Assembly: GCA_019310535.1 (NCBI GenBank)
Contig: JAFDED010000004.1
Location: 1-64,000 of the forward strand
DNA: 64,000 nucleotides
Origin: Deltaproteobacteria bacterium
Lineage (GTDB): Bacteria; Desulfobacterota; JAFDED01
Direction: 5' to 3'
Shown: piece after piece, positions 47,476-64,000 of the stretch
How positions within the stretch are numbered: position 1 is the stretch's first letter
How the letters are laid out: each line of letters opens with the position of its first letter
Translations under genes and position numbers: made by a program
Notes under the pieces: model-generated
Seen by the model: only the letters and a program-made list of their open reading frames with translations
Told to the model about the DNA's origin: nothing
Database searches by the model: none

Positions 47476-47563
47476 GAGGCTTTTTCAAAATCATTTTCGA
47501 CAGTTAAAAAATAATGTTCTTTGGAAACAATAAATTATACCTATTAACTTAGCTCAGCTAATA

Positions 47564-47604
47564 CTGTATATTGTAGTTATTAAATCACGGCATACAATAT
47601 ACAG
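47564..47604. repeat. 12-bp inverted repeat
   Basis: CTGTATATTGTA (47564-47575) and TACAATATACAG (47593-47604) are perfect inverted copies 17 bp apart. They end 18 bp before the mini-ORF start, so they could be an operator or the end of a decayed mobile element. Confidence 0.55.
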
Positions 47605-47622
47605 AAGAAGAGAAGTAGGCAT

Positions 47623-47751
47623 ATGAAAAAGCCATATCAAAAAACAAACCTTCTGGAATTCCAGAAAAATATCAAACCGAACAAGTTTAATAGATTGGTT
47701 ACGGCTTGTGTTAACTCCAGGAGCGTTTGTTATGCTGAGTTAACTCAATAG
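47623..47751 (+). pseudogene. 42-codon mini-ORF, perhaps a remnant
   Basis: This ORF was not in the track (too short). It reads MKKPYQKTNLLEFQKNI at its N-terminus and ends at TAG. The NLLEFQK start faintly recalls the N-terminus of some transposases, but the rest does not match and the call is open. The AGAAG upstream could serve as a weak ribosome-binding site. Confidence 0.25.
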
Positions 47752-48045
47752 CAATTTTAAAATGATTTTTGCACCTATTAATTAAAATGTACTGCGAAAC
47801 TTTAGTACGATAAGGGTCATTTGGGGGAAAGAAAAAGAAATTGCAATGTCCCTTGAAATGTGTTACATGTCTCGATGTCATAATAATAATGCAAATTTTA
47901 TATGCTTCAGCCGGTTTGCAAAAGGCACAAGGGTTTTCCAATAAAAGTTTGCGAGTTTACCCAACACAAGGTATAAGCAGGTTCACATTGGTCGTTGGAA
48001 AACGACGCTTTTAGATTTTTGTTGCTTGTTTCAAATGGGAACAAC

Positions 48046-48059
48046 GCTGAACGTTCAGC
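48046..48059. promoter_or_regulatory. Palindrome upstream of the GntR gene
   Basis: GCTGAACGTTCAGC is a perfect 14-bp palindrome 134 bp before the regulator gene. GntR-family operators are often short palindromes, so autoregulation is a reasonable guess. Confidence 0.4.
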
Positions 48060-48193
48060 CCGCTGGATATTTCATCCGCAGGAAAGGGTTTGACCCAGGG
48101 GTACATGTGCGTGATTGACTATCGGATCCACAGAAAAGCCGTAAGGGAAGTCGCTATTGTGAACACGATTCTCTGCATCCACGGAGCCTCGGG

Positions 48194-48946
48194 ATGAAAA
48201 AACGAGTAGCGGGCCCCATCCCGCTTTATTATCAAATAGGGAATATCCTGCGGGATAAAATCCACAAAGGTGAATATAAATTGGGTGAACGATTTCCCAG
48301 TGAGAAGGAATTATGCGTTGAGTTTGGGGTAAGTCGTATAACCATCCGGCAGACCCTGGCGTCCATGGCTGATCAAGGCCTATTGAACAGGCAGCGGGGT
48401 CGAGGGACTTTTGTTCAGGAAAAGCCGCGTTCAAGGAAAGTTTATCAATTTGGAGGATTTCTGGAGGACCTGGCCGGTCAGGTGATGCGGTTAAAGGCGC
48501 ATCTGATCCGGTTTGAACCCATCGACCCCGGGTCGGATATTCGCCAAATCTTACGCCTCGGCCCACAAGATGAGGTGTTCATAGTGGAGCGCGTTCGACT
48601 TTCCAGTCAAGAACCTATACTGCACGCGATCCATTACATTCCCGGTCTTATAGCCCGGCAGTTTGATCCTGCGGACCTTTATAAACAGAACATTATGGAA
48701 ATTATTGAAAAGAAATGCGGAATCAGCATCAGCCATGCAGAGCAGACTATGGTGGCGACCCTTGCCGATGCAACTATGTCCGAAATACTTCAAGTGAGGA
48801 TCGGTGCTCCGTTATTGAAGATCCGGAGGACATTTTTCGCCATCGATCACCAGCCGGTGGAGAACGTGCTGGTCCACTACCGGGGTGATATGTATGAGTT
48901 TGTTGTGCGATTGAATAGGCGCGATGAGGATAATAAAGAAAAGTAA
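48194..48946 (+). CDS. GntR/HutC-family transcriptional regulator
   Basis: The 250-residue protein has an N-terminal winged helix typical of GntR (GERFPSEKELCVEFGVSRIT and GLLNRQRGRGTFV) and a C-terminal UbiC/UTRA-type ligand domain (about residues 90-245). It precedes an acyl-CoA dehydrogenase gene by 116 bp and the large transport/catabolic cluster, so it may control one or both. The effector is unknown. The start ATG has only a weak CGGGA upstream. Confidence 0.9.
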   Translation: MKKRVAGPIPLYYQIGNILRDKIHKGEYKLGERFPSEKELCVEFGVSRITIRQTLASMADQGLLNRQRGRGTFVQEKPRSRKVYQFGGFLEDLAGQVMRLKAHLIRFEPIDPGSDIRQILRLGPQDEVFIVERVRLSSQEPILHAIHYIPGLIARQFDPADLYKQNIMEIIEKKCGISISHAEQTMVATLADATMSEILQVRIGAPLLKIRRTFFAIDHQPVENVLVHYRGDMYEFVVRLNRRDEDNKEK

Positions 48947-49062
48947 ATTGCACTTTTTCCAGCCAGGAAGTGATCACCGCCATGAACCCGGCAGTATTTT
49001 AAACGGCATGACTGTTCGCCCGCCAGGTAAATCCCTGCTGCAACACAAGGAGGACTGACAAT

Positions 49063-50223
49063 ATGGATTTCAATCTCACGGAAGAACAAAGGATTTTGCA
49101 GGACAGCGCGAAGCGCCTTGCGGAACGGGAATTTGCCCAAAACGCGTTTACATGGGAGGAGCGCGGGGAATACCCATGGCAGAACCTGAAAATCCTGGCT
49201 GAAAACGGTTTCACCGGTATCCGCATACCTCAGGAAGACGGCGGTCAGGGTGGGGAGCTATTGGACGCCATCATTGCCATGGAGGCGGTTTCGAAAGTCT
49301 GCCCGCACAGTGGTGATTGCGTGCAGGCAACTAACTTTGGAGCTATCCAGCAATTGGCCGTGCTGGGGTCCCGGGAACTGAAGCAGCAGTCCCTTGTCCC
49401 TCTCCTGAAAGGCGACGGGCTGATTACCGTTGCGATGTCCGAGCCGAACGCAGGATCAGCCGTGACAGACTTGCAAACCGCGGCCCGCCTGGACGGGGAT
49501 TCAGTGGTCATCAACGGCAGCAAGATTTTCAACTCCAATGGGCCCCATGCCACGTGCTTCGTGGTCTGGGTACGGTTCGGCAAGGATGTGCAGTCCTCCG
49601 GCGCCGTCCTGGTGGACCATGAGGCGCCGGGTTTCTCCAGAGGAAAAACGGAATATCACATGTCGGGCGAGGCTCACTGCATGCTGTATTTCGATGATTG
49701 CCGCGTTCCACGGGGAAATATCATCGTGGAGGAGGACGGATTTCGGCGTCTGCTGCCGGTCTTCAACATCGAGCGACTGGGAAACTCCACCCGGTCCCTT
49801 GCACTGGCGCAGGCCTGCTTTGATCGTGCAGTCCAGCACGCAAAGGAACGCCAGCAATTTAACCGCCCCATTTGTGAATTCCAGGGGATCCAGTGGAAGG
49901 TGGCGGAGATGAAGATGAAGCTGGACGCCGCCCGCCTCCTGCTGTACCGGGCAGCCGTAAACGCTCAGGAGGGGACCCCCTCGGCCCTTGAGACGTCCAT
50001 TGCCAAGGCATACTGCAACCAGACCGCCTTTGAGGTTGCCCACGAGGCCGTGCAGATCATGGGCGGGTATGGTTACTCACGGGAGTTTCCCGTGGAATAC
50101 ATGTTTCGCCGTATCCGCGGATGGATGATAGCCGGCGGCACTATCGAGATGCTGAAGAACCGCATCGCCTCAGAGGTCTTCGGGCGTCGCTTCAGCCAGC
50201 GGCCCCCCCGTCCGAAAGCTTAA
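49063..50223 (+). CDS. Acyl-CoA dehydrogenase family protein
   Basis: This 386-residue flavoprotein shows ACAD signatures: MSEPNAGSAVTDLQ, ERQQFNRPICEFQGIQWKVAEM, and QIMGGYGYSREFPVEYMFR. At the catalytic-base site, where short- and medium-chain enzymes read YEGT, this protein reads AGGT (WMIAGGTIEM), so the usual Glu is missing. The base may come from another position, as in isovaleryl-type enzymes, or the reaction may differ. The substrate cannot be named. An AAGGAGG ribosome-binding site is present. Confidence 0.88.
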   Translation: MDFNLTEEQRILQDSAKRLAEREFAQNAFTWEERGEYPWQNLKILAENGFTGIRIPQEDGGQGGELLDAIIAMEAVSKVCPHSGDCVQATNFGAIQQLAVLGSRELKQQSLVPLLKGDGLITVAMSEPNAGSAVTDLQTAARLDGDSVVINGSKIFNSNGPHATCFVVWVRFGKDVQSSGAVLVDHEAPGFSRGKTEYHMSGEAHCMLYFDDCRVPRGNIIVEEDGFRRLLPVFNIERLGNSTRSLALAQACFDRAVQHAKERQQFNRPICEFQGIQWKVAEMKMKLDAARLLLYRAAVNAQEGTPSALETSIAKAYCNQTAFEVAHEAVQIMGGYGYSREFPVEYMFRRIRGWMIAGGTIEMLKNRIASEVFGRRFSQRPPRPKA

Positions 50224-51034: not shown

Positions 51035-51442
51035 ATGATCAGACCGAAAAGAATATACTTGACAGCCCTGCTGGCAGTGAGTGCTTTCTTGATTGGATAT
51101 GCCTCTATATCCATAGCGGATGAGAAGGGGAGTGGTGGACCCAAGTTTGACCTCAAAATCGCTCCAGAGGCTGATGTCAAAGCCAGCGCGTATAAGAAAG
51201 AGTGGAAAGGGAAAAGCCGTCTCCACGTGCAATTGGAAATCACCAACGTGACCGACAAGCCACAACGTTTCAAGGTTATGGGCGACATCCCGGAGGGGCC
51301 TGCCTTCGCCATGAAGGTTCCCCGGAAGGGCAAACCACCGGTGGTGAAACCCAAGGAGACCCAGAAGGTTGTCTTCCCGCTGATTTACGAGAAGATGCCG
51401 GATCGGATCTTTATTGAGCTGATTACCGTTTCTGCGCAGTGA
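51035..51442 (+). CDS. Small exported protein of unknown function
   Basis: The 135-residue product has a signal peptide (YLTALLAVSAFLIG, cleavage near SIADE). The mature part is Lys-rich and predicted beta-rich (SRLHVQLEITNVTDK, KPKETQKVVFPLIYEK), like a small immunoglobulin-like domain. GGAGG precedes the ATG. It is the first gene ahead of the TAXI receptor and TRAP permease (105 bp upstream), so it may assist uptake or protect the receptor. I do not recognise a family. Confidence 0.75.
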   Translation: MIRPKRIYLTALLAVSAFLIGYASISIADEKGSGGPKFDLKIAPEADVKASAYKKEWKGKSRLHVQLEITNVTDKPQRFKVMGDIPEGPAFAMKVPRKGKPPVVKPKETQKVVFPLIYEKMPDRIFIELITVSAQ

Positions 51443-51546
51443 ATTTCGGAGATGAAACAAGGTGCAGGATCATTAAACCTCTTTCCGAGGGGGAAACCCC
51501 CTATTACTGGGAGGGCGACGAGACCCCTGCCAAAAGGAGGGTAGAG

Positions 51547-52518
51547 ATGAAGGACAGAAGCCTTACTATCCTTACTGTCGTAAGTATTGCGGTGGCCCTG
51601 GTCATTGTGGGTGCAGCGGCCGCCGACTCCCACGCAGAGAAAATGAAGCGTTATTCAGTGGCCACAGGCGGAACAGGCGGAACAGTATATCCCATGTTCG
51701 GCGCCATCGCCGAAATTGTCAATAGAAACGTCAAAAATGTGAAGCTGACCGTGGAGGTAACCGCAGCCTCTAACGAAAACCTGCGCTTGATCCAGACCGG
51801 AGAGGTGGACTTCTTTATCTCCAACGGCCAGTTGTGCAGCAAGGCCGTCAAAGGAGAAAAGCCCTTCCCCACCAAGTTCGACAAAGTCCGGCTCGCAGGT
51901 TGGATGCATGGAAGTCCCTTGCAGATCGCTGTATTCGCCAAAAGCAATATTAAGTCCCTCATGGACCTGAAAGGGAAAAAAGTGGTGGTCGGCGCTGTTG
52001 GTTCGGGCAACGAGGCCTCCGTGCGGATCATTTTTGGGATGGCGGGGCTGACCTACAAGGATTTCAAGCCGTTATACCTTAGCTTCAGCGAGGGTGCTGC
52101 GGCCATGAAAGACCGCAGGGTTGACGTGTTGACCGTACAGGCGGGTTACCCTACCACCGCCCTGCTGGACCTGTCCACATCAGTTCCCATCAGGCTGATT
52201 CCGGTCGAAATGGCGCTGGCTAAAAAGGTCAACGCCAAGTACCCGCTCTATATTCCATCCACGATCCCGGCAAATATCTATAAAGGCCAGACTGAGCCAA
52301 CACTGGTTATCGACTCCCCCGGCGTGTGGGGCGCCGCAGCGTCTGTCCCTGCGGACTTGGTTTACCAGGTGGTGAAGTTAACCAAGGAAAACATCGACGA
52401 ACTGGCCAACGTCCACGTTGCCTTCAAGCAATGGAAATTCGAACCGTCTGTCCAGGCGGCAGGTCCTCTGCATCCTGGCGCCATCCGGTATTACAAAGAA
52501 CTGGGGTTGATGAAGTAA
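51547..52518 (+). CDS. TAXI-family TRAP solute-binding protein
   Basis: This 323-residue periplasmic receptor has a signal peptide (LTILTVVSIAVALVIVG) and the TAXI-type start VATGGTGGTVYPMFGAIA. GGAGG precedes the ATG at 51547; the listed frame from 51439 would overlap the gene upstream. TAXI receptors serve TRAP transporters and often bind glutamate-like or dicarboxylate ligands. The fused permease follows after a 165-bp spacer holding a strong stem-loop. The ligand is not known; cyclic or D-amino acid compounds are suggested by neighbouring enzymes. Confidence 0.9.
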   Translation: MKDRSLTILTVVSIAVALVIVGAAAADSHAEKMKRYSVATGGTGGTVYPMFGAIAEIVNRNVKNVKLTVEVTAASNENLRLIQTGEVDFFISNGQLCSKAVKGEKPFPTKFDKVRLAGWMHGSPLQIAVFAKSNIKSLMDLKGKKVVVGAVGSGNEASVRIIFGMAGLTYKDFKPLYLSFSEGAAAMKDRRVDVLTVQAGYPTTALLDLSTSVPIRLIPVEMALAKKVNAKYPLYIPSTIPANIYKGQTEPTLVIDSPGVWGAAASVPADLVYQVVKLTKENIDELANVHVAFKQWKFEPSVQAAGPLHPGAIRYYKELGLMK

Positions 52519-52560
52519 CCTCCATCGATTGATTCGTTTTCTGTTAACGGTACCATGTTT

Positions 52561-52599
52561 GGCTCCGGGGCGGCTTAGCTGTCCGGTTGCCCCGGAGCC
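52561..52599. promoter_or_regulatory. Strong stem-loop between TAXI receptor and TRAP permease
   Basis: GGCTCCGGGGC (52561-52571) and GCCCCGGAGCC (52589-52599) are perfect 11-bp arms. No T-run follows, so it is more likely to protect the 3' end of the receptor message or to reduce read-through than to be a full terminator. Confidence 0.75.
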
Positions 52600-52683
52600 G
52601 ACATTCTGTCGGAAATGGACCGCCCTCCATCGGGGAAACCGGAATTGTTGAATCACCAAACATGATGCTTCACGGGATTTTAG

Positions 52684-54561
52684 ATGACCAGTCAACGCCA
52701 TCTGACGGGTATTATCGCCAAAGTCGCCATGGTCACTGCTGTGGCCATGACTCTGTTCCATCTCTATTATACCACGCTGGGCATCATGCAGATGATGTAC
52801 TTCCGAAGCTTCCACGTCATGTTTGCCTGCGTGCTGATTTTTCTGCTCTACCCAATCTCCAGGAAATCATCCCGTTCGAGTGTCCCCTGGTATGATTATC
52901 TCTTTGCCGCCCTGACCATCGCGGGCGGAACATACATCATCGTCGAGTTTGAGTCCATGGTGGCCCGGTTGGGCATCCAGACCACCCGTGATGTGGTCTT
53001 CGCCATCATTACCATCAGCCTTGTATTGGAAGCCACCCGGAGGACCGTTGGGAATGCATTGCCGATCTTATGCCTGGTCTTTATTGCTTACGCCATGTTC
53101 GGACACTACCTTCCCGATGCAATTGCTCACCGAGGCTTCAGCATCCAGCGCATCACCAGTCAGCTTTATTCAACCATGGAAGGCATCTACGGCATGACCA
53201 CAAAAGCCATGGCCGTGTATGTGTTCTTGTTCATAGTATTCGGTGCCTTCCTGGACGCATCCGGCGCCGGCAACTATTTCAACGATTTGGCGTACAGCCT
53301 GACCGGTTCCTGGCGGGGAGGCCCCGCTCAGACCGCCGTGGTTGCCAGCACACTGATGGGGTCGGTCTCGGGGGCCGCAGTGGCCAACGTGGTCGCCACA
53401 GGCAGTTTTACTATCCCTTTGATGAAGAAGGTCGGATATCGCCCGCATGAGGCCGGTGCAATCGAGGCGGCTGCATCCACCGGCGGCCAGTTCATGCCGC
53501 CGGTGATGGGCTCGGGCATATTCATCATGTCCGAGTGGACGGGCATCCCTTACTTTGAAATCGTCAAGTTGGCGTTCCTTCCTGCCCTGCTCTATTTTTT
53601 TTCCGTGGGAGTGTACGTCTATATTCAGGCCAATAAAATGGGCCTTCAGCCGATCCCTCGCTCTGACCTGCCACCCATCGGCAAAACGTTGCTGAAAGGA
53701 ATCCACTACATGGTGCCCCTGATTATTCTGGTTGTGGTGCTTCTTATTGGTCGCACCCCTACGTTTGCTGCAGTCATCGGTATCCTTTCGGTAATTGTGA
53801 TCAGTTGGTTTCGCAGGGAAACCCGGATGTATCCACGGGACATCATGCGTGGACTGGCCATGGGCGCCAGGAAGGCCATAGCAGTTTCCGCGGCCTGCGT
53901 GGCGTCGGGCGTCGTGGTGGGCGTGGTAGGCCTTACAGGGATAGGGCTGTCATTTTCCTCAGGTGTTATTTCACTGGCCGGGGATTCTTTGATCCTCGCC
54001 TTGCTTTTGGTCATGGGCGCCACCGGCATCCTTGGGATGGGCCTGCCCATCACGGCGGCCTATATTGTCACCGCCATTCTGGCAGCTCCGGCCATGCTCA
54101 AGATGGGAATCCCCCTGCTGGTGGCGCATATGGTCATTTTCTGGTTCAGCTCCATCGGCAACGTTACTCCACCTGTCTGCCTTGCGGCATACGCCGGCGC
54201 CGGGATGGCTGGTGCCGATCCCATGCGCACCGGCTTTACCGCCTGGAACGTGGCAAAAGGGTTGTATGTGATACCATTCATGATGGTTTACACTCCGTTG
54301 ATGACCGGTGAACCGGGTCCGATTCTGCTCAATACTTGCCTCATTGCGCTGGGGCTCACGGCCTTCACTATAACACTTTCACGACAATTAATCCGGCCAT
54401 TGAGCCTTTTTCAGCATGCGGCGTTCTTGGGAGCAACGATCTTCCTGCTTTTCCCCATCAACACCATTACTTATGGCTTGGGCATGGCGCTGTTCCTCTG
54501 GGGGATCGTCAGTGATATCTTAAAAGGGAGGGAAAAGATCAGCCAGACTGCTTCGGCTTGA
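52684..54561 (+). CDS. Fused TRAP transporter permease (DctQM type)
   Basis: This 625-residue membrane protein of the TRAP-TAXI type fuses the small (4-helix) and large (12-helix) subunits. Many hydrophobic segments are visible; typical motifs are ASGAGNYFNDLA and GSVSGAAVANVVATGSFTIP, and later GMGLPITAAYIVTAILAAP. It imports the ligand of the TAXI receptor using the sodium gradient. The start ATG has a weak upstream site, which fits its dependence on the stem-loop-bearing leader. A DUF1850 gene follows 21 bp later. Confidence 0.93.
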   Translation: MTSQRHLTGIIAKVAMVTAVAMTLFHLYYTTLGIMQMMYFRSFHVMFACVLIFLLYPISRKSSRSSVPWYDYLFAALTIAGGTYIIVEFESMVARLGIQTTRDVVFAIITISLVLEATRRTVGNALPILCLVFIAYAMFGHYLPDAIAHRGFSIQRITSQLYSTMEGIYGMTTKAMAVYVFLFIVFGAFLDASGAGNYFNDLAYSLTGSWRGGPAQTAVVASTLMGSVSGAAVANVVATGSFTIPLMKKVGYRPHEAGAIEAAASTGGQFMPPVMGSGIFIMSEWTGIPYFEIVKLAFLPALLYFFSVGVYVYIQANKMGLQPIPRSDLPPIGKTLLKGIHYMVPLIILVVVLLIGRTPTFAAVIGILSVIVISWFRRETRMYPRDIMRGLAMGARKAIAVSAACVASGVVVGVVGLTGIGLSFSSGVISLAGDSLILALLLVMGATGILGMGLPITAAYIVTAILAAPAMLKMGIPLLVAHMVIFWFSSIGNVTPPVCLAAYAGAGMAGADPMRTGFTAWNVAKGLYVIPFMMVYTPLMTGEPGPILLNTCLIALGLTAFTITLSRQLIRPLSLFQHAAFLGATIFLLFPINTITYGLGMALFLWGIVSDILKGREKISQTASA

Positions 54562-54582
54562 ATTTAGGCGAGGGAAAAGACG

Positions 54583-55056
54583 ATGAAAATCACGATTCCA
54601 GCCGTCTTTGGTGTTTTTGTTGGAATCCTGATCACCGCCCCGGCATCCGGGGGCCGATACGTTATCGAGGTGTACAACGACAGCTTGGGAAAGATGATCA
54701 TCCAGCGGCCCGCGGTGCCCGGCAATAGGTTCTCACTCGAATACATGCACTCCATTCAGCTTCATCCGGTGGTGGAAAACTTCACTTTTGATAAGCAGGG
54801 AGACATCATCCTGACCGACCAGATTATCATGGACCACGGGCACGGGCTGCCTGAGCCCTCCCCAAAGGATCACTGGCGTTTGGTTGATGACAAGATCCAC
54901 ATTTATAACATCAACAAGCGTATTGGGACCATCGTTCTGCGGGTCAGCTTTTTACATGACCAGTTCCTGGTGTTCGGCTCATTTCGACTGAACCTGGTGA
55001 AAGTCGCACGGGGAGGACAGAGAATAATCATTTCTGTCCATCGTTTCGAGGAGTAG
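54583..55056 (+). CDS. DUF1850 family protein
   Basis: This is a 157-residue protein with an N-terminal hydrophobic segment (AVFGVFVGILITAPAS). The FSLEYMHSIQLHPVVENF stretch matches DUF1850 proteins, which are often found beside TAXI-type TRAP genes. Its role is unknown; the genomic link suggests that it assists the transporter. An AGGCGAGGG ribosome-binding site precedes the ATG, 21 bp after the permease gene. Confidence 0.82.
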   Translation: MKITIPAVFGVFVGILITAPASGGRYVIEVYNDSLGKMIIQRPAVPGNRFSLEYMHSIQLHPVVENFTFDKQGDIILTDQIIMDHGHGLPEPSPKDHWRLVDDKIHIYNINKRIGTIVLRVSFLHDQFLVFGSFRLNLVKVARGGQRIIISVHRFEE

Positions 55057-55176
55057 TTCTTTCCCCCGAGTCGCCCTATGGGTGCGGCAGTTCACTAAAG
55101 GGCGGTGTCCAGCGTTTTGGCGGAGCTTGCCCGACTTCGCATTTTGTTCCGAGTTCCGGGTGATGAGGAGGTTTCT

Positions 55177-56307
55177 ATGCAGCTTACGGAAAAGGAGATC
55201 AAGTTCGCCACAGATGGTATTGATCGTCTGGTTTGTGCTCCAATCGGCGCCAAGTTTTTCCGGCGCACCGAATACCCGCTGATCCATTTGCTCTATGAGG
55301 CGGCCCGAAAAAAAACGGCGACGGGAGACCCGTTGAGCTACCAGGCGGCCAAAGGCCTGGCCGAGCGGGTCAAGCCGGGTGACACGGTGATTTTTCTGAC
55401 CGGTTGGTACTTGCCCATGTACATGATCGGCGAGAATGACGGCCCTCCGGGCTCCGCTGGCTTGGCCCGCGCCATCAACTTCGGGCTGGGGGCCACTCCC
55501 ATCGTCTTCTCAGAGTCCGGCCACCTGGACATAATAAAGGCCTCTTTTCAAGGTGCGGGCTTTCGCATTGCCGATGATCTCAAAGAGGCCCGGAAGATAA
55601 TGCGCCGCGTATATGTGGCAGCCCCGCTCTCGCCTCGCATGGATGAAACACAGAGCATAGAGATCATAAATCGCCGGCTGGATGAGCTGAAGCCCTCTGC
55701 CGTCATCGCAGTGGAGAAAAGCGGTCCCAATGCAGCCGGACTGAATCACTCGCTGCCCGGACGAGATCTGACACCCATCAACGGGAAATACCACCTCTTG
55801 GTGGAAGAGGCCCGGCGCAGGGGCATATTTACCATTGGCTGCGGTGATGGCGGCAACGAGATCGGCATGGGCAACGTTCACGAGGAGGTGCGAAAATACC
55901 TTGCCACCGGCGACACGTGCTACTGTGGATGGTATTCAGGTTGCGCCGCCACTACTCAGACTGATGTACTGGTTGTGGGCTTCATTTCCAATTGGGCCGC
56001 TTATGGCATCGAGGCAGCACTGGCACTATTCCTCCAGCGCCACGAACTCATGCATGACGGGGAGATCGAGGAGCGTGTTTTGCGCTTGACCGCCGACGCC
56101 GGCGCTGCCGGACCTCCTTACGGATTTTCCGAAATGGGTGTGGATGAGCTTCCCACCCGCTTTAATATCCTGCTGGTAGAACAGCTCAAGTTCACCGTGC
56201 TGGATTACCTGACACATACAGAGGGCCGCCGCAGATACATGGAGACTATCAAGGGGATCGCAGCCCTGGACACTTGGATTAAAGAGGAATACGCCCACAA
56301 AGATTAG
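55177..56307 (+). CDS. D-glutamate-cyclase-like protein
   Basis: The 376-residue protein is of the D-glutamate cyclase (DUF4392/DGLUCY C-terminal) type: TGWYLPMYMIGENDGPPGS, VIAVEKSGPNAAGLNHS and IGCGDGGNEIGMGNVHEEV. The family converts D-glutamate to 5-oxo-D-proline. GGAGG lies before the ATG at 55177; the listed start at 55105 is not favoured. It lies between TRAP and TTT transporter genes and upstream of hydantoinase/oxoprolinase subunits, which fits a D-glutamate or 5-oxoproline pathway. Activity on other D-amino acids is possible. Confidence 0.87.
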   Translation: MQLTEKEIKFATDGIDRLVCAPIGAKFFRRTEYPLIHLLYEAARKKTATGDPLSYQAAKGLAERVKPGDTVIFLTGWYLPMYMIGENDGPPGSAGLARAINFGLGATPIVFSESGHLDIIKASFQGAGFRIADDLKEARKIMRRVYVAAPLSPRMDETQSIEIINRRLDELKPSAVIAVEKSGPNAAGLNHSLPGRDLTPINGKYHLLVEEARRRGIFTIGCGDGGNEIGMGNVHEEVRKYLATGDTCYCGWYSGCAATTQTDVLVVGFISNWAAYGIEAALALFLQRHELMHDGEIEERVLRLTADAGAAGPPYGFSEMGVDELPTRFNILLVEQLKFTVLDYLTHTEGRRRYMETIKGIAALDTWIKEEYAHKD

Positions 56308-56351
56308 TGAGGTGTCTCAATGTCGACTTTTGTAAAAGGAGGAGGAAAGCC

Positions 56352-57326
56352 ATGAAGAAGAGAACATCCGTCTGGTTTGTCAGTTTAGCGGCGCTATTGG
56401 TTTTTGGGTTCAGCCCATCGGTTCCGGCAGCGGACTATCCGGTAAAGCCGGTTCAGTTGATCGTGCCCTATTCGCCCGGAGGCAGCCTGGACAGGACTGC
56501 TCGGATCATCGCAAAACACGCCGAGAAGTACCTGGGCCAGAAGGTGGTAGTCGTTAACAGGACCGGCGCCAGCGGTTCCGTCGGCTTCACGGCCATCGCG
56601 CAGGCCAAGCCGGAGGGTTACGTCCTGGGTATGGGCGCCACACCTTTGATCCAGCACCACCTGCTCCTGGAAGGGGTGACATACACATACAAAAGCTTCA
56701 CCCCCGTCGTAATGTGCTCCTATGATAATAACACCTTTACGGTGAAAGCTGGGAGCCCCATCGACAAGCCATGGAAGGAGTTTTTGGCATATATGAAGGC
56801 GCATCCTAATGAAATACCCATCGGATTGGGAGGACACTGGTCTTCCCTGGATCTGGCTCGGGCGGCTTTCGAGCTGGCCACCGGGACGAGCTTTCGCAGG
56901 GTCCAATTCAAGGGAGGCGCCAAGGCTGTCGCATCTGTTCTGGGGGGGCATACTATGGCCACCACCGCTTATCAGGATGAAATTTACGACCACGTTAAGT
57001 TGGGCAAGCTTCGCATCCTGACCTTTATGTCCGAGAAGCGCATGGCCAACTTCCCCGATGTCCCAACCATGAAGGAACTCGGTTACGATGTGGTCATGGG
57101 TGTATGGCGTGGTGTCATCGCTCCCAACGGTCTGCCGGACGACGTCAAAAAGAAGGTCATCGAGGCTTTTGACAAGACGATCAAGGATCCCGCACTCAAG
57201 GCAGACTTCGAAAAAGGAAAGGTCCCCTACGTGTATAAGAACGCCGAGGAATTTGGAAAGATCAGGGCTCAGGGCCACGAGAAAATCACCAAGATCGTCC
57301 AGACCATCAAGGCCAGGTCAAAATAA
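56352..57326 (+). CDS. tctC: TctC/Bug-family solute-binding protein
   Basis: This 324-residue periplasmic receptor of the tripartite tricarboxylate transporter (TTT) family has a signal peptide (FVSLAALLVFGFSPS, then AADYPVK). YPVKPVQLIVPYSPGGSLD is the Bug-protein signature at the mature N-terminus. AGGAGGAAAG precedes the ATG at 56352. Bug proteins bind carboxylates including glutamate and aspartate. The TctB and TctA genes follow after a stem-loop-bearing gap. Confidence 0.92.
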   Translation: MKKRTSVWFVSLAALLVFGFSPSVPAADYPVKPVQLIVPYSPGGSLDRTARIIAKHAEKYLGQKVVVVNRTGASGSVGFTAIAQAKPEGYVLGMGATPLIQHHLLLEGVTYTYKSFTPVVMCSYDNNTFTVKAGSPIDKPWKEFLAYMKAHPNEIPIGLGGHWSSLDLARAAFELATGTSFRRVQFKGGAKAVASVLGGHTMATTAYQDEIYDHVKLGKLRILTFMSEKRMANFPDVPTMKELGYDVVMGVWRGVIAPNGLPDDVKKKVIEAFDKTIKDPALKADFEKGKVPYVYKNAEEFGKIRAQGHEKITKIVQTIKARSK

Positions 57327-57397
57327 GAATTTATCGGGGGAATCCGGCGTCCTTATGGTTCAAAACTCAAGGGTTCCCCCTGTACATGTAAATTCTT
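57325..57397. promoter_or_regulatory. Nested stem-loop between tctC and tctB
   Basis: AAGAATTTA (57325-57333) pairs with TAAATTCTT (57389-57397), and inside it GGGGGAA (57336-57342) pairs with TTCCCCC (57374-57380). It begins in the tctC stop codon. Like the stem-loop after the TAXI gene, it may stabilise the binding-protein message or attenuate the membrane genes. Confidence 0.65.
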
Positions 57398-57450
57398 CGT
57401 GAAGACGAGATCGATTCGGAAACGAGCCGGTTAAAGTTTGGAGGATTGTG

Positions 57451-57939
57451 ATGTCCCGCGCTGAGAGGCTCTCCGTTCCTTTGACGCTGATCGTTTTCAG
57501 CGCCCTGAGCTATTTACAGACAACAAGATTTCCGCCCCTGGCGGCCCGATTCCCCAAATTGGTCATTACGGGAATATTGTCGCTGTCGTTGTGCCTCTTT
57601 ATCAAAGAATTGAGATCCCGCACACCACCGGCCGAAGTGGAATCAGAGAAAGAGAATGCGGAAGGGCTGCAGTTTGGTGCCGGGGGGCTCACCATGCCCA
57701 GGGCCCGGCAGAGCCTGATTATCGTCTCCATGATCGGATATATTGGCCTCTTGCAATATCTGGGCTTTGTATTGGCCACGCTTCCGTTTCTTCTTGTGCA
57801 ATTCTGGCTCCTTGGATATCGGGGGATCTGGACCGTCGTGTCGGTGGCGGTTTGCATGACTTTGGCGATTTATTATATATTTGTTAAGATTTTTCTGATT
57901 ATGTTTCCGGAGGGGATCATTTTACCCGGTCTTTTATGA
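57451..57939 (+). CDS. tctB: TctB-family small membrane subunit
   Basis: The 162-residue protein has four hydrophobic segments (for example SLIIVSMIGYIGLLQYLGFV and AVCMTLAIYYIFVKIFLI) and the ending of a TctB subunit. It partners TctA and TctC in the TTT importer. GGAGG lies before the ATG at 57451; a GTG three bases upstream (57448) is an alternative. The gene lies between tctC and tctA in the usual C-B-A order. Confidence 0.85.
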   Translation: MSRAERLSVPLTLIVFSALSYLQTTRFPPLAARFPKLVITGILSLSLCLFIKELRSRTPPAEVESEKENAEGLQFGAGGLTMPRARQSLIIVSMIGYIGLLQYLGFVLATLPFLLVQFWLLGYRGIWTVVSVAVCMTLAIYYIFVKIFLIMFPEGIILPGLL

Positions 57940-58012
57940 CAAAGAGGCATGACTGTTTCTTCACTGCCAAACAGACTGAAAGCGGCACATATTTTGCCGG
58001 TATGAGGACCGT

Positions 58013-59497
58013 ATGCTCCACAACATTTCCGCCGGCTTTTTTGTTGCCTTTCAGTTGCTCACGATCCTTACGAGTGCCCTTGGCGTGATGTTTGGGATCA
58101 TTGTGGGTGCCATTCCCGGCCTGTCTGCCACAATGGGCGTGGCGCTTCTGGTCCCTCTTACCTTTGTCATGGAACCCGCCCAGGGTTTGCTTATGCTCAT
58201 GGGTATTTTCTGCGGCGCTGTTTACGGCGGCTCCATCTCCGCCATCCTTTTTCGCGTTCCGGGAACAGGCGCCGCTGTGATGACCATGCTCGACGGCAAC
58301 GAGATGACAAAAAAGGGGGAGAGCCAGAAAGCGCTTCAAGCCTCGGTATGGGCATCCTTTGCCGGCGGCGTAATGAGCGCCTTTGCCCTCATGTTTTTTG
58401 CCCCCGCCCTAGCGGTGATCGCGTTGAAATTCGGCCCCTCGGAGTACTTCGCCCTGGCTCTATGCGGATTGACGATCATTTGCACCCTTGAGTCCAGCAA
58501 TCTCATCAAGGGTTTTATCAGTGGGCTGTTCGGTCTCCTGGTGGGAACCATGGGGCTGGACCCCATGACGGGTTACCCCCGCTTCACCTTTGGACGGGCT
58601 GATCTTTTCGAGGGAGTCCAGCTCATTCCTGCGCTCATCGGCCTGTTCTCGTTACCCGAGGTTCTCTCTATTGTGACACGAAGAGGGAGCGTGAAGATGA
58701 TTTCGGGTGCTGAAATGACCCATAAAGGATTGACCCGCGGGGAAATCCGTCGCACTGCGCCCTTGCTGGTTAAAACAGGTCTTCTGGGAGTGTTTATCGG
58801 GGTCTTGCCCGGTGCCGGTGGTGTGATCTCTTCCATTATTTCTTACAGTGAAGCCAAACGATCGGCCAAAAGACCCGAATTATTCGGAACAGGGATTATC
58901 GAGGGAGTGATCGCCCCTGAAGCAGCAAACAACGGGTCTTCAGCAGCGTCTCTGGTGCCAATGCTGACTCTCGGCATCCCCGGCAGCGCAACCGCTGCCA
59001 TCTTCCTTGGTGCCCTGACAATACATGGCTTGCGTCCCGGTCCCCTGCTGTTCCACAGCAACTCTTCAGTGGTCTTCGGGCTACTGGTGGGAACGTTTTA
59101 TGTTCAGGTCATCATGCTCATATTAGGGCTTTTTGGGGCACGGTTGTTTGCCCGGCTTGTTCAAATTCCGGGCGCATTCATCGCCCCCAGCATCGCATTG
59201 TTCAGCATAGTCGGCTCTTATGCCATGGGGACCAACATTTTCGACGTGTGGATCATGTTCATTTTCGGAATCATAGGGACCTTGATAAAGCGATACGGAT
59301 TTTCCTCGCCTGCCCTGCTCTTGGCCCTTGTGCTCGGCCCCATTTTGGAAGAGAACATGGCCGCCAGCCTCCAGATATCAGGAGGCTCCCTATGGATATT
59401 TATCAGCCGTCCTCTGACGCTGTTGATTTACGCCGCAACCATTTTCCTGATTATCGGCACTCTGCGGCATCTGAAGAAACAAAGATTATCTTCATGA
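58013..59497 (+). CDS. tctA: TctA-family large membrane subunit
   Basis: This 494-residue permease has about a dozen membrane segments. The family signature near the N-terminus reads GAIPGLSATMGVALLVPLT, with VYGGSISAILFRVPGT nearby; a second motif in the middle reads LTLGIPGSATAAIFLGAL. It is the channel subunit of the TTT importer, driven by ion gradients. It follows tctB by 73 bp and precedes an aminotransferase gene by 16 bp. Confidence 0.94.
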   Translation: MLHNISAGFFVAFQLLTILTSALGVMFGIIVGAIPGLSATMGVALLVPLTFVMEPAQGLLMLMGIFCGAVYGGSISAILFRVPGTGAAVMTMLDGNEMTKKGESQKALQASVWASFAGGVMSAFALMFFAPALAVIALKFGPSEYFALALCGLTIICTLESSNLIKGFISGLFGLLVGTMGLDPMTGYPRFTFGRADLFEGVQLIPALIGLFSLPEVLSIVTRRGSVKMISGAEMTHKGLTRGEIRRTAPLLVKTGLLGVFIGVLPGAGGVISSIISYSEAKRSAKRPELFGTGIIEGVIAPEAANNGSSAASLVPMLTLGIPGSATAAIFLGALTIHGLRPGPLLFHSNSSVVFGLLVGTFYVQVIMLILGLFGARLFARLVQIPGAFIAPSIALFSIVGSYAMGTNIFDVWIMFIFGIIGTLIKRYGFSSPALLLALVLGPILEENMAASLQISGGSLWIFISRPLTLLIYAATIFLIIGTLRHLKKQRLSS

Positions 59498-59513
59498 ATG
59501 GGAGGTACAACCG

Positions 59514-60440
59514 ATGGCCAAAGAGATTCGAAAGCCGGATTTTGTCTGGCTCAACGGTGAATTTATCCCCTTTGACGAGGCCAGAGTCCACCTGTTGAGC
59601 CCCTGCGCCCGCTATGGCATCAATGTCTTCGAGGGTCTGCGTGCTTACTGGAATGATGAGGTGCGGCAACTCTACGCATTCCGTCTCCGGGAACACTATG
59701 TCCGGCTTGCGGAGTCCATGAAGATGATGCGGCTTCAGATTCCGCAGTCCATAGAGGATAATATCAAAATCCTGATAGAGACCTTTCAAAAGAATAACCT
59801 GCGCGAAGATTGCCACATCAGACACGTTGTCTATGTAGATGGTTTTGAGGGGTATTATTCCACAGAACCGGTGGGCATGCTCGTGTGCGCCCTTCCCACG
59901 GGGCGGTTTCTTAATATCGAGGAGGGCATCACTGCCACCATCAGTTCCTGGCGGAGGATAGATGACAACAGCATCCCGGCGCGCATAAAGGCGGGATCCA
60001 ATTATCAGAACAGCAGACTTGCTACGATGTGGGCCAAAAAAGACGGCTATGACCAGCCCATCATACTGAACGCCGACGGGAAAGTGGCCGAGGGACCGGG
60101 TTCGTGTTTCTTCATGGTGCGCAAGGGGATAGTCCTCACTCCGCCCGTCACCGCCGGCATACTTGAAAGTGTAACCCGCGATTCGCTGATCCAGTTGATC
60201 AGCGAGGAATTGAGGCTTCCAATGGAAGTCCGAGACATCGACCGGACAGAGGTATACGTGGCAGAAGAGGCCTTCCTCTGCGGGAGCGGCTATGAGGTTA
60301 CTCCCATCAATTCGGTTGACCGCTTACCCCTGGGTGAGGGAAAGCCGGGACCCATTACCCGTCGGATACAGAAAGCTTACTTTGACATCGCTAGGGGACG
60401 TAGCCCCAAGTATCCTGAGTGGAGAACTGCCGTTTACTGA
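59514..60440 (+). CDS. Fold-type-IV aminotransferase (BCAT/D-amino-acid type)
   Basis: This is a 308-residue PLP enzyme of the IlvE/D-alanine transaminase family: YGINVFEGLRAYW, the Schiff-base Lys in RIKAGSNYQNSRLA, and EGPGSCFFMV. The branched-chain aminotransferase pattern is strong, but D-amino-acid transaminases share the fold. GGAGG precedes the ATG. Between transporter and hydantoinase/oxoprolinase genes, and in the same cluster as a D-glutamate-cyclase-like gene, a role in moving amino groups to or from glutamate is plausible. The substrate side cannot be settled by eye. Confidence 0.86.
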   Translation: MAKEIRKPDFVWLNGEFIPFDEARVHLLSPCARYGINVFEGLRAYWNDEVRQLYAFRLREHYVRLAESMKMMRLQIPQSIEDNIKILIETFQKNNLREDCHIRHVVYVDGFEGYYSTEPVGMLVCALPTGRFLNIEEGITATISSWRRIDDNSIPARIKAGSNYQNSRLATMWAKKDGYDQPIILNADGKVAEGPGSCFFMVRKGIVLTPPVTAGILESVTRDSLIQLISEELRLPMEVRDIDRTEVYVAEEAFLCGSGYEVTPINSVDRLPLGEGKPGPITRRIQKAYFDIARGRSPKYPEWRTAVY

Positions 60441-60463
60441 GCGGTGCAACTGCGGGGACGCAA

Positions 60464-62164
60464 ATGGATAGCATTACTCTGGAAGTGATCTGGAGCCGTT
60501 TGATCTCCATTGTGGATGAGATGGCCATCACACTCAAAAGAATGTCTTTCTCCACTATCGTCAGGGAGGCCAACGATTTTGCTTGCGTACTCTTCAACGA
60601 ACGGGGAGAGTCAATAGCCCAGAGCAGCCTGTCCATTCCTTCCTTCATCGGGTGCCTTCCCCGCACTATCAAGTTGATGCTCGAGCGGTTTCCGCCTGAG
60701 GCTCTGGCGGAAGGCGACGTGCTGATCACCAATGATCCGTGGATAGGCGCAGGACACTTGCCGGACATTGTCGTGGTGGCCCCCATCCACCGCAGTGGAA
60801 AGCTTATCGGGTTCAGCGGAAGCATTGCACACGCCTCGGACGTGGGAGGCCGGCTCTGGTCGGCCGATGCTGGCGAACTATTCGAAGAAGGAATCAGAAT
60901 TCCCGTCATGAAGCTTTATCGGTGCGGTGAACCCAATCAGGACCTGCTTGAAATGATCCTGGCAAACGTCCGCGTCCCGGAGCAAGTGCTGGGCGATATC
61001 AGCGCCCAGGTCATTGCCAACGAAATGATTGTCAAACGACTGGATGAGCTGTTGACCGAGTATGAGCAGGAAGACCTGGAGGAGCTTTCTCAGGAGGTCA
61101 TCCGCCGCTCCGAGCAGGCCATGCGCAATGAGATCGAACGAATTTCCGACGGCACTTACCGACACACGGTCCATGCCGATGGGTTCGAATCACCGGTGAC
61201 GATCTGCTGCACCCTGACAGTGGAAGGATCGGATCTTCGGGTCGACTACGCGGGCAGTTCTTCCCAGAGCCGACGGGGGATCAACGTGGTGCCTAACTAC
61301 ACCTTTTCGTTCACCATGTACGCCGTCAAGTGCGCCCTTCTGCCCCATATTCCAAACAACGAAGGGTGTTTTCGGCCTGTAGATGTGTGTGCGCCCGAGG
61401 GCACTATCTTCAACCCTCGCTTTCCCGCCGCCGTGGGAGCGAGGCACATCATCGGTCACTACATACCGTATGCCGTCTTCGGCGCACTGGCCCGGGTCAT
61501 TCCCGAGCGGGTCATTGCTGATAGCGGAACCAGCGGATATCCTTACTTCGGTGGAACCGATGAGCGCGGCAGAAAATTCACCCAGTTCTTACCCACGGCC
61601 GGCGGCCTGGGAGCCAGACACGATAAGGACGGTGAGAACTGCCTCTATTTTCCGAGCAACGTCTCCAATGTCCCCGTGGAAGTGGTGGAAGCGATGACAC
61701 CTCTGCAGATTGATCGCAAGGAATTCGCGACGGATTCGGGGGGTCCCGGGAAGTTTCGGGGTGGCTGCGGGCAGGAGTTTGTGATCCGAATAAAAGATGG
61801 TGCCGACATTCCGCCCTTAACCATGTCCATGATCACCGAGCGCACCATATTTCCCGCCAACGGTATCGCCGGGGGCAAGCCGGGCTGCACCCGGGTAACG
61901 GTGCTCAACGATGGAGAGACACCCCATCCCAAGCTCCAGGTCCCGTTCCCCCCCGGAACCCGTATTTTCACCCTTGCACCTGGCGGCGGCGGCTACGGGG
62001 ACCCTCTTGAACGCGATCCGGTCCTGGTCGCGCAGGACGTCCGATTGGGTCTTGTCTCCCATGAGAGAGCCCGCGAGGACTACGGGGTGGTCCTGGACCT
62101 CAATACCGGAGAGGTCTTAATCGAGGAGACATTGAAATTGCGTAAAGAGATGAGTCGCGACTGA
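60464..62164 (+). CDS. hyuB: Hydantoinase/oxoprolinase B-type subunit
   Basis: The 566-residue HyuB-like subunit carries ITLEVIWSRLISIVDEMA at the N-terminus, FLVRE-like STIVREANDFACVLF, and VLITNDPWIGAGHLPDI. The C-terminal region includes APGGGGYGDPLERDP, typical of the family. HyuA-HyuB pairs use ATP to open hydantoin or 5-oxoproline rings, or carboxylate ketones. ATG 60464 with GGGGA upstream is preferred to the listed start that overlaps the aminotransferase gene. The hyuA gene follows within 2 bp. Confidence 0.9.
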   Translation: MDSITLEVIWSRLISIVDEMAITLKRMSFSTIVREANDFACVLFNERGESIAQSSLSIPSFIGCLPRTIKLMLERFPPEALAEGDVLITNDPWIGAGHLPDIVVVAPIHRSGKLIGFSGSIAHASDVGGRLWSADAGELFEEGIRIPVMKLYRCGEPNQDLLEMILANVRVPEQVLGDISAQVIANEMIVKRLDELLTEYEQEDLEELSQEVIRRSEQAMRNEIERISDGTYRHTVHADGFESPVTICCTLTVEGSDLRVDYAGSSSQSRRGINVVPNYTFSFTMYAVKCALLPHIPNNEGCFRPVDVCAPEGTIFNPRFPAAVGARHIIGHYIPYAVFGALARVIPERVIADSGTSGYPYFGGTDERGRKFTQFLPTAGGLGARHDKDGENCLYFPSNVSNVPVEVVEAMTPLQIDRKEFATDSGGPGKFRGGCGQEFVIRIKDGADIPPLTMSMITERTIFPANGIAGGKPGCTRVTVLNDGETPHPKLQVPFPPGTRIFTLAPGGGGYGDPLERDPVLVAQDVRLGLVSHERAREDYGVVLDLNTGEVLIEETLKLRKEMSRD

Positions 62165-62165
62165 G

Positions 62166-64000
62166 ATGGGATTTTCTGACAGAAATCCGAAGTTCCGGGT
62201 GGGAATCGACATCGGGGGCACCTTCACCGATCTGTTCCTTGTCCGGGATGATCGGGCTGCCGCCCGGCACAAACTTCTGACGACCCCGCACGATCCATCG
62301 GAGGCAATGTTTCAGGGGTTGCAAGAGCTGTTGAGCAGGCACAACCTTTCCATGGACGATTGCCTGGTCATCATTCACGGGACAACTCTGGTGACCAACG
62401 CCATCATCGAGCGCAAAGGCTCAAAAACCGCTCTGATCACTACAGATGGTTTTCGTGATCTGTACGAGATGGGCCGTGAACTGAGATACGACATATACGA
62501 CCTGGAAATTGATCGACCCCGGCCCCTTGTGCCCAGAGACCTTCGATGGGGGCTGAAGGAGCGTGTATCGTCAGAGGGACGGATTCTGGTTCCTCTGGAC
62601 GAAGAACAGGCTCGGGACATAGCCAATCGATTAGCCCGCGAAAACATAGAGGCCGTTGGGATTTCCTTTCTCCATGCCTACCGGAACCCGTCGCACGAGC
62701 AGAAGATGGGGGAGATCATCCGGGAGCACACCCCTCATATGTTTATTTCCATTTCTTCGGAGGTGGTGCCCGCCATACGGGAATACGAACGGACGTCCAC
62801 CACGGTGGCCAATGCCTACGTTCAGAGCATGGTGGCAAGCTACCTTGAGCGGCTTCAGGAACGTCTGGCGCAGACAGGCTTCGATGGCCGGTTGTACCTG
62901 ATGATGTCCAATGGCGGAGTCATGACGCCCGAGATGGCCCGGAAGTTTCCCGTTCGTATGTTGGAGTCCGGACCTGCCGCCGGCGCTCTGGGGGCTGCTT
63001 ACCTGGCTCGCCGGGGACGGAATAAGCGTGTGTTGTCCTTTGACATGGGAGGCACAACTGCCAAAACCTGCCTGATCGATGACGGAGAACCGCTGGTTGC
63101 CCCTGAGTTCGAGGCGGCACGGATCGGTCGGTTCAAAAAGGGCAGCGGTCTGCCCATCCAAATACCTGCTGTCGAGATGATCGAGATCGGTGCAGGCGGC
63201 GGGAGCATTGCCCGGGTGGACGAACTGGGCTTGCTGAAAGTCGGGCCTGACAGCGCCGGGGCGGACCCCGGCCCGGCCTGTTATGGCCTTGGCGGTACGG
63301 AGCCTACTGTAACTGACGCGGATCTGATCCTCGGCTATCTCAGTCCCGAATACTTCCTGGGAGGGAAAATGCGGCTTGACCGGGAAGCAGCAGCGGAGGC
63401 TATTGCCCGACGTGTGGCACAACCCCTGGGAATCGACCTGCTGCAGGCTTCCTGGGGAATCCATGAGGTGGTTTGCGAAAATATGGCCATCGCCTCCCGC
63501 ATCCACATCCTGGAGCGCGGCCGTGATCCCAGGAACTACACAATGCTGGCCATGGGAGGGGCCGGTCCGGTCCATGCTCTCCGCATTGCCCAGAAGCTGG
63601 GCATCGAGCGGGTCATCATGCCTGCGGCGGCTGGTGTCTTTTCGGCCCTGGGCTTGCTGGTGGCGCCGTTGGCCTTTGACTACATACGCACCCGCTATAT
63701 GATCCTGGAAGAGGCTGACCTGGAAACAGTTTCAGCACTCTTCCGGGAGATGGAAAAAGATGGGTACACTCAATTAGACGCACTCGGGATCACGGAAGAA
63801 AAGGCCATGGTTCAACGATCGGCTGACATGCGATATCTCGGACAGGGCCATGAGATCAAGGTGGTGCTCCCCGGCGGAGAAATGGACGGGCAGTGGATCA
63901 AAAAAGCGTACCAGGCTTTCGAACAGGCTTATCGGACACTCTATCACCGTTCTCTGGATGAGATTCCTGTGGAGGTGGTTAACTGGCGATGCGTGATCTC
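62166..64000 (+). CDS. hyuA: Hydantoinase/oxoprolinase A-type subunit (partial, runs off right edge)
   Basis: This open frame was not in the track because it has no stop before the window end. At least 611 codons are present. The N-terminus reads RVGIDIGGTFTDLF, the ASKHA-type phosphate-binding motif of HyuA; VIHGTTLVTNAIIE, LSFDMGGTTAKTCLI and GADPGPACYG follow. It starts 1 bp after the hyuB stop, so the two are coupled. The family hydrolyses hydantoins or 5-oxoproline with ATP or takes part in ketone carboxylation. With a D-glutamate-cyclase-like gene upstream, 5-oxoprolinase activity is favoured. Confidence 0.9.
   Translation, partial: MGFSDRNPKFRVGIDIGGTFTDLFLVRDDRAAARHKLLTTPHDPSEAMFQGLQELLSRHNLSMDDCLVIIHGTTLVTNAIIERKGSKTALITTDGFRDLYEMGRELRYDIYDLEIDRPRPLVPRDLRWGLKERVSSEGRILVPLDEEQARDIANRLARENIEAVGISFLHAYRNPSHEQKMGEIIREHTPHMFISISSEVVPAIREYERTSTTVANAYVQSMVASYLERLQERLAQTGFDGRLYLMMSNGGVMTPEMARKFPVRMLESGPAAGALGAAYLARRGRNKRVLSFDMGGTTAKTCLIDDGEPLVAPEFEAARIGRFKKGSGLPIQIPAVEMIEIGAGGGSIARVDELGLLKVGPDSAGADPGPACYGLGGTEPTVTDADLILGYLSPEYFLGGKMRLDREAAAEAIARRVAQPLGIDLLQASWGIHEVVCENMAIASRIHILERGRDPRNYTMLAMGGAGPVHALRIAQKLGIERVIMPAAAGVFSALGLLVAPLAFDYIRTRYMILEEADLETVSALFREMEKDGYTQLDALGITEEKAMVQRSADMRYLGQGHEIKVVLPGGEMDGQWIKKAYQAFEQAYRTLYHRSLDEIPVEVVNWRCVI

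Follow-up and report, generated by a model that had tools for sequence, protein, structure and literature searches.

The single proven D-glutamate cyclase that we found in the literature is mammalian DGLUCY (9030617O03Rik), which combines a DUF1445 domain with a DUF4392 domain (Sci Rep 2017, PMC5339696). TON_0340 of Thermococcus consists of DUF4392 only; it has a manganese site and dephosphorylates many compounds, though very weakly, and its natural substrate was not established (PLoS One 2016, PMC5132392). For ATP-dependent opening of cyclic amides, the caprolactamase CapAB provides the reference for ATP motifs and metal tetrad (PMC8453981). PxpABC is a demonstrated bacterial route for 5-oxoproline, for example in Corynebacterium (PMC13274462). 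Here we analyze a gene run that begins near 51.0 kb in a 64,000-nucleotide stretch (hereafter the window; positions 1 to 64,000, forward strand) of contig JAFDED010000004.1 from a Deltaproteobacteria bacterium (GCA_019310535.1). The run encodes a DUF4392 protein, a class-IV aminotransferase, the HyuB and HyuA subunits of the ATP-dependent lactamase/hydantoinase family, and two importers of TAXI-TRAP and TTT type. We regard it as somewhat probable that the region is part of a same-strand catabolic run that imports and degrades an organic acid, for which a nitrogen-containing cyclic amide, or an amino or keto acid derived from one, is the likeliest candidate, and that joins two modules.

The DUF4392 protein (55105-56307, plus strand, with its start likely near 55177) has PF14336 as its sole Pfam domain (E=2e-54, 185 bits, cut-off 27.9), and DUF1445 was not found in it by Pfam search. 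In Pfam, the name D-Glu_cyclase belongs to DUF1445 (PF07286), whereas DUF4392 is merely called GLUCM-like_C. No match to DUF1445 was detected anywhere in the genome, which is about 95% complete; the Bacillus positive control was detected. The protein therefore resembles DGLUCY in the shared DUF4392 domain but differs from it in lacking DUF1445. Its closest solved relative is TON_0340 (E=1e-18), to which the likeness lies in DUF4392 alone, with the acidic residues of the manganese site kept. The two differ in length (400 amino acids in the window protein, 268 in TON_0340), and the window protein is encoded with a TTT importer. Residues E110, D112, E204, D248 and E252 align with five of the six metal ligands of TON_0340. 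D347 is invariant in 12 homologues and is likely to be the sixth ligand, as judged by position only; with it, all six acidic ligands expected of TON_0340-like metalloenzymes are represented. The protein thus appears from its residues to be an intact metalloenzyme of the manganese type. The genome's other DUF4392 gene, whose product is 36-37% identical, is located at the end of another contig (C29, L006:1-2328). It adjoins an ISXO2/IS1595-type transposase, and an ABC importer is found a few kilobases further on.

Genes neighbouring DUF4392 were counted at 87 loci, comprising 80 from named genomes together with annotated plasmid loci after removal of one duplicate. These loci were chosen by similarity to DUF4392, irrespective of context. 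Counts were made from six-frame translation and are lower bounds, since many contigs are short; scoring a lone ABC ATPase as an importer inflates the ABC share. Within 5 kb of DUF4392, a TTT, TRAP or ABC gene was present at 44 of the 87 loci (TTT at 11), a pyridoxal phosphate (PLP) enzyme of aminotransferase, SelA-like or PALP type at 26, and an Asp/Glu-racemase-family gene at 11. HyuA or HyuB occurred at a single locus. On the tree, linkage of DUF4392 to TTT genes must have arisen or been lost independently at least four times; the window protein sits on a long branch whose placement is not resolved. The initial annotation had called the pairing of DUF4392 with TRAP-TAXI and TTT importers unusual, which these counts contradict. 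Given the frequency of importers and the spread of TTT linkage over at least four branches, pairing with importers recurs, and the rarity lies in HyuAB as a neighbour of DUF4392. No DUF4392 was found in the viral contigs searched.

In annotated plasmids of Roseinatronobacter and Sinorhizobium, DUF4392 lies directly 5' of TctC-TctB-TctA, and a Devosia plasmid has the order TctB-TctA-DUF4392-TctC. These modules resemble the window in placing DUF4392 beside TctC, TctB and TctA, but they hold no HyuAB or class-IV aminotransferase within the same operon, and their DUF4392 proteins are only ~31-32% identical to that of the window. In Sagittula, DUF4392 stands 5' of a DctP-type TRAP system, while further loci combine it with ABC importers and with Asp/Glu-racemase-family, UbiD, SelA-like and aldehyde dehydrogenase (ALDH) genes. 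A relative from the same phylum has the order IclR-TPP (thiamine pyrophosphate) enzyme-DUF4392-class-IV aminotransferase-epimerase-TctCBA. The nearest other case of HyuAB near DUF4392 comes from Sinorhizobium: a HyuAB-aminotransferase-KdgD-ALDH run and a DUF4392-TctCBA-RidA run are neighbours within ~15 kb, with a LysR gene between them.

HyuB, the metal subunit (60419-62164, plus strand; PF02538 E=6e-158, 527 bits), is encoded by a gene that overlaps that of the aminotransferase. HyuA, the ATP subunit, extends on the same strand from 62166 to the window edge at 64000, which cuts it; its true end is at contig position 64,283, and three Pfam domains were identified in it (including PF01968, 312 bits). 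When aligned to CapB (6yra), HyuB keeps the metal tetrad (D41, H99, D102, H124), and HyuA retains the phosphate motifs DIGGTFTD and DMGGT as well as the adenosine motif GxxPGP found by alignment to CapA. HyuAB is accordingly predicted to be catalytically intact and ATP-dependent, as a member of the lactamase/hydantoinase family. It has the fold families, ATP motifs and metal tetrad of CapAB and of the 5-oxoprolinase/hydantoinase family, yet it scores only 542 and 236 bits against the CapA/CapB equivalog models (cut-off 1000) and 314 bits against the acetophenone carboxylase model (cut-off 1500). No NCBIfam equivalog cut-off is reached, and scores this far under the curated values do not allow a substrate to be assigned. 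Among structural matches, an annotated N-methylhydantoinase and caprolactamase rank above the carboxylases. Lys40 of CapA was considered as a discriminator of oxoprolinases from lactamases and was dropped, as the published number maps to no lysine in the 6yra chain.

Among relatives in the phylum, a methylmalonyl-CoA-mutase-family gene adjoins HyuA at 21 of 44 loci (e.g. L148, L157, L168, L173). These loci often also carry a small companion gene, a CoA-ligase and CoxM/CoxL-type genes, forming a conserved operon whose HyuAB may be a carboxylase. Mutase linkage was not seen at the HyuA loci of the genome itself, which are on C17 (the window contig), C162 and C178. In the tree, the window HyuA falls outside the mutase-linked clade, on a long branch with a placement that is not resolved.

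The class-IV aminotransferase (59514-60440, plus strand; Aminotran_4 E=5e-38) is similar to branched-chain aminotransferases and passes two IlvE models of NCBIfam (NF005146 with 302 bits against a cut-off of 279, and another with 291 against 246). It is one of four paralogues in the genome (C17, C55, C111, C178), which are separate in the tree from an IlvE-type copy on C162. A role as biosynthetic IlvE serving the downstream ilvBN genes was rejected, the housekeeping-type copy being that on C162. Its partner appears to be HyuAB. The C178 paralogue adjoins a HyuA-HyuB-flavoprotein-TctC-TctB-TctA set, a second cluster in the same genome. Likewise, Antarctobacter heliothermus and Shinella sp. have operons of HyuB-HyuA-TPP enzyme-short-chain dehydrogenase/reductase (SDR)-class-IV aminotransferase. 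Like the window, these operons join HyuBA to a related class-IV aminotransferase (44-45% identical), but they are without DUF4392, TTT and TAXI genes, and the TPP enzyme and SDR stand between HyuA and the aminotransferase. This operon is conserved between a Roseobacter and a Rhizobiaceae plasmid (L183:5852-12933, L184:5810-13397), and with it come divergently oriented genes for ALDH, an FAD oxidoreductase and ornithine cyclodeaminase.

All of the named families were present at their places in the window, far above chance, in a Pfam profile search of its proteins. The run probably begins with an open reading frame (ORF) of 135 amino acids (51035-51442, plus strand), which has a signal-like N-terminal segment and a good ribosome site, AAAGGAGGGAATC, ahead of its ATG; no Pfam family matched it. 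The remaining genes of the run are likewise on the plus strand. The TAXI-type solute-binding protein follows at 51547-52518 (PF16868 E=2e-72; TIGR02122 267.8 bits, cut-off 84). Its ORF opens at a GTG at 51439, but the true start is probably 51547, judging from the ribosome site AAAAGGAGGGTAGAG that precedes it. A fused TRAP membrane subunit of DctQM type (52684-54561; PF06808 E=8e-87; TIGR02123 674 bits, cut-off 321) and a DUF1850 protein (54583-55056; PF08905 E=9e-13) lead to the DUF4392 gene. The TTT importer is encoded directly after the latter by TctC, its solute-binding protein (56307-57326; PF03401 E=3e-50, 172 bits), TctB (57448-57939; PF07331 E=6e-15) and TctA (58013-59497; PF01970 E=8e-146, 486 bits).

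The contig is 105,684 bases long, and the same-strand run continues beyond the window to ~69.8 kb, so that the genes from 51035 to the window edge form the 5' two-thirds of a run of ~51.0-69.8 kb. After HyuA there are genes for an old yellow enzyme (OYE)/BaiCD-like flavoenzyme (from contig 64,288), an MmgE/PrpD protein (from 66,422), a NicX-like protein of 365 amino acids without a Pfam family (67,933-69,030) and an RraA-like protein (from 69,012). These are followed by a 2-oxoacid:ferredoxin oxidoreductase and a CoA-transferase-like gene at 70-74 kb, and then by ilvBN. Intergenic gaps within the run do not exceed 165 nucleotides and several genes overlap, and therefore the whole run is likely to be a single operon. 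Upstream of an 800-base gap, genes at 46210-50223 encode a thiolase, a GntR/UTRA regulator and an acyl-CoA dehydrogenase. Regulation of the run by the GntR/UTRA gene is possible, though the gap intervenes.

The two modules are also found apart, DUF4392 with an importer and HyuBA with a class-IV aminotransferase, which indicates that the window joins two separate modules. Gene content, order, short spacing, the intact catalytic motifs of HyuA, HyuB and the DUF4392 protein, and the recurrence of the modules are direct observations, and beside them we infer the following metabolic flow. The TAXI-TRAP and TTT systems would each import a carboxylate-bearing substrate. HyuA would activate the substrate using ATP, and HyuB with its bound metal would hydrolyze the ring amide. 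The aminotransferase would then turn the freed amino group into a keto group. An OYE-type reductase, a PrpD-type (de)hydratase and an RraA-type aldolase would channel the resulting keto acid into central metabolism, perhaps together with the 2-oxoacid:ferredoxin oxidoreductase encoded downstream. The DUF4392 metalloenzyme would act on the compound imported by the TTT system. By this account the operon is of an ordinary catabolic kind, with two already known modules joined in it.

Several observations weigh against this explanation. The genome (4.8 Mb) contains 22 TctA and 59 DctM matches, a few of which are split genes, so that about 21 TctA and over 50 DctM genes are counted; with so many importers, one may fall beside a catabolic gene by chance. 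In the phylum relative with DUF4392, aminotransferase and TctCBA together, the aminotransferase belongs to another branch of the tree than that of the window. Opening of a lactam is also not certain, given that ketone carboxylases are among the relatives of HyuAB and that methylmalonyl-CoA-mutase genes neighbour the most similar HyuA genes of the phylum.

Catabolism of an N-heterocycle is an unlikely alternative, but the best of those considered. HyuAB would open a reduced or hydroxylated lactam of the pyridine- or pyridone-carboxylate type, and OYE, PrpD and RraA would follow, somewhat as in anaerobic nicotinate breakdown; these three genes suit reduction, (de)hydration and aldol cleavage. 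The 67,933-69,030 protein is distantly related to NicX, the 2,5-dihydroxypyridine dioxygenase (7cn3, E=3.5e-13), and its plasmid relatives are located in NicX operons. However, the iron ligands of NicX are H265, S302, H318 and D320 (PMC7910607), and in the alignment the protein encoded here has Glu and Ala at the positions of H265 and S302. With two of the four ligands replaced, it is unlikely to be a NicX dioxygenase, and that assignment was rejected. Further copies of its family occur elsewhere in the genome, three of them on contig C2, and neither a ring hydroxylase nor a 6-hydroxynicotinate reductase was identified.

It seems quite unlikely that HyuAB is instead an ATP-dependent ketone or enol carboxylase in an operon that degrades a keto acid. 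Acetone and acetophenone carboxylases belong to the HyuAB family, the HyuA genes most similar within the phylum lie beside methylmalonyl-CoA mutase, CoA-ligase and Cox-type genes, and the oxidoreductase and CoA-transferase-like genes at 70-74 kb would be in keeping with such a route. Nevertheless, the annotated N-methylhydantoinase and caprolactamase outrank the carboxylases as structural matches, and the position of the window HyuA outside the mutase-linked clade also speaks against it.

The initial annotation had placed a cyclase-like gene, a class-IV aminotransferase, HyuB, HyuA and two importers in this region and had read them as a D-glutamate or 5-oxoproline pathway. Pfam and NCBIfam matches bear out its gene naming and locations, and an import-plus-catabolism run with an intact HyuAB, metal and ATP motifs kept, also stands; the proposed substrate is not supported. 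In that pathway, the DUF4392 protein would convert imported D-glutamate to 5-oxo-D-proline by cyclisation, and HyuAB would open the ring again. PF14336 is indeed the C-terminal domain of the mammalian cyclase, racemase-family genes and PLP enzymes accompany DUF4392 at the frequencies given above, glutamate is a ligand of some TAXI and TTT receptors, and the two Sinorhizobium operons are at most ~15 kb apart. However, the genome has no DUF1445 match, and DUF4392-only TON_0340 has been tested only as a weak manganese phosphatase. The genome also encodes a complete PxpA-PxpB-PxpC 5-oxoprolinase set on contig C163, with a periplasmic amino-acid-type receptor. PxpABC performs the reaction proposed for HyuAB, yet it consists of unrelated proteins; its presence elsewhere in the genome makes a 5-oxoprolinase role for HyuAB unnecessary. 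The decisive glutamate residues of the receptor VcGluP are Tyr45 and Gln93 (PMC11574862), and V83 and N129 occupy these positions in the window TAXI protein, which hence lacks the pair expected of a glutamate-specific receptor of this type; S75 is kept as S111, and the E125 position is Ser. A cyclase followed by an ATP-dependent oxoprolinase would spend ATP only to regain glutamate, unless stereochemistry changes. HyuAB itself remains under the equivalog cut-offs and does not regularly accompany DUF4392. Although none of these points by itself excludes D-glutamate, the missing DUF1445, PxpABC, the TAXI residues, the ATP-consuming loop and the rarity of HyuAB beside DUF4392 together make it unlikely as substrate, and the full cyclisation-and-reopening route is very improbable.

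DUF4392 proteins occur across bacteria, archaea and animals, and those of bacteria are publicly annotated as glutamate cyclase on the basis of a single two-domain animal enzyme. For the DUF4392-only family, this name is probably misleading. It is quite possible, if somewhat short of probable, that stand-alone DUF4392 proteins are dedicated enzymes of widespread import-catabolism modules and perform on the imported acid an undescribed manganese-dependent step other than D-glutamate cyclisation. The window would then be one such module joined to ATP-dependent ring opening. As the neighbouring receptor should bind the substrate of the DUF4392 enzyme, that substrate is directly testable.

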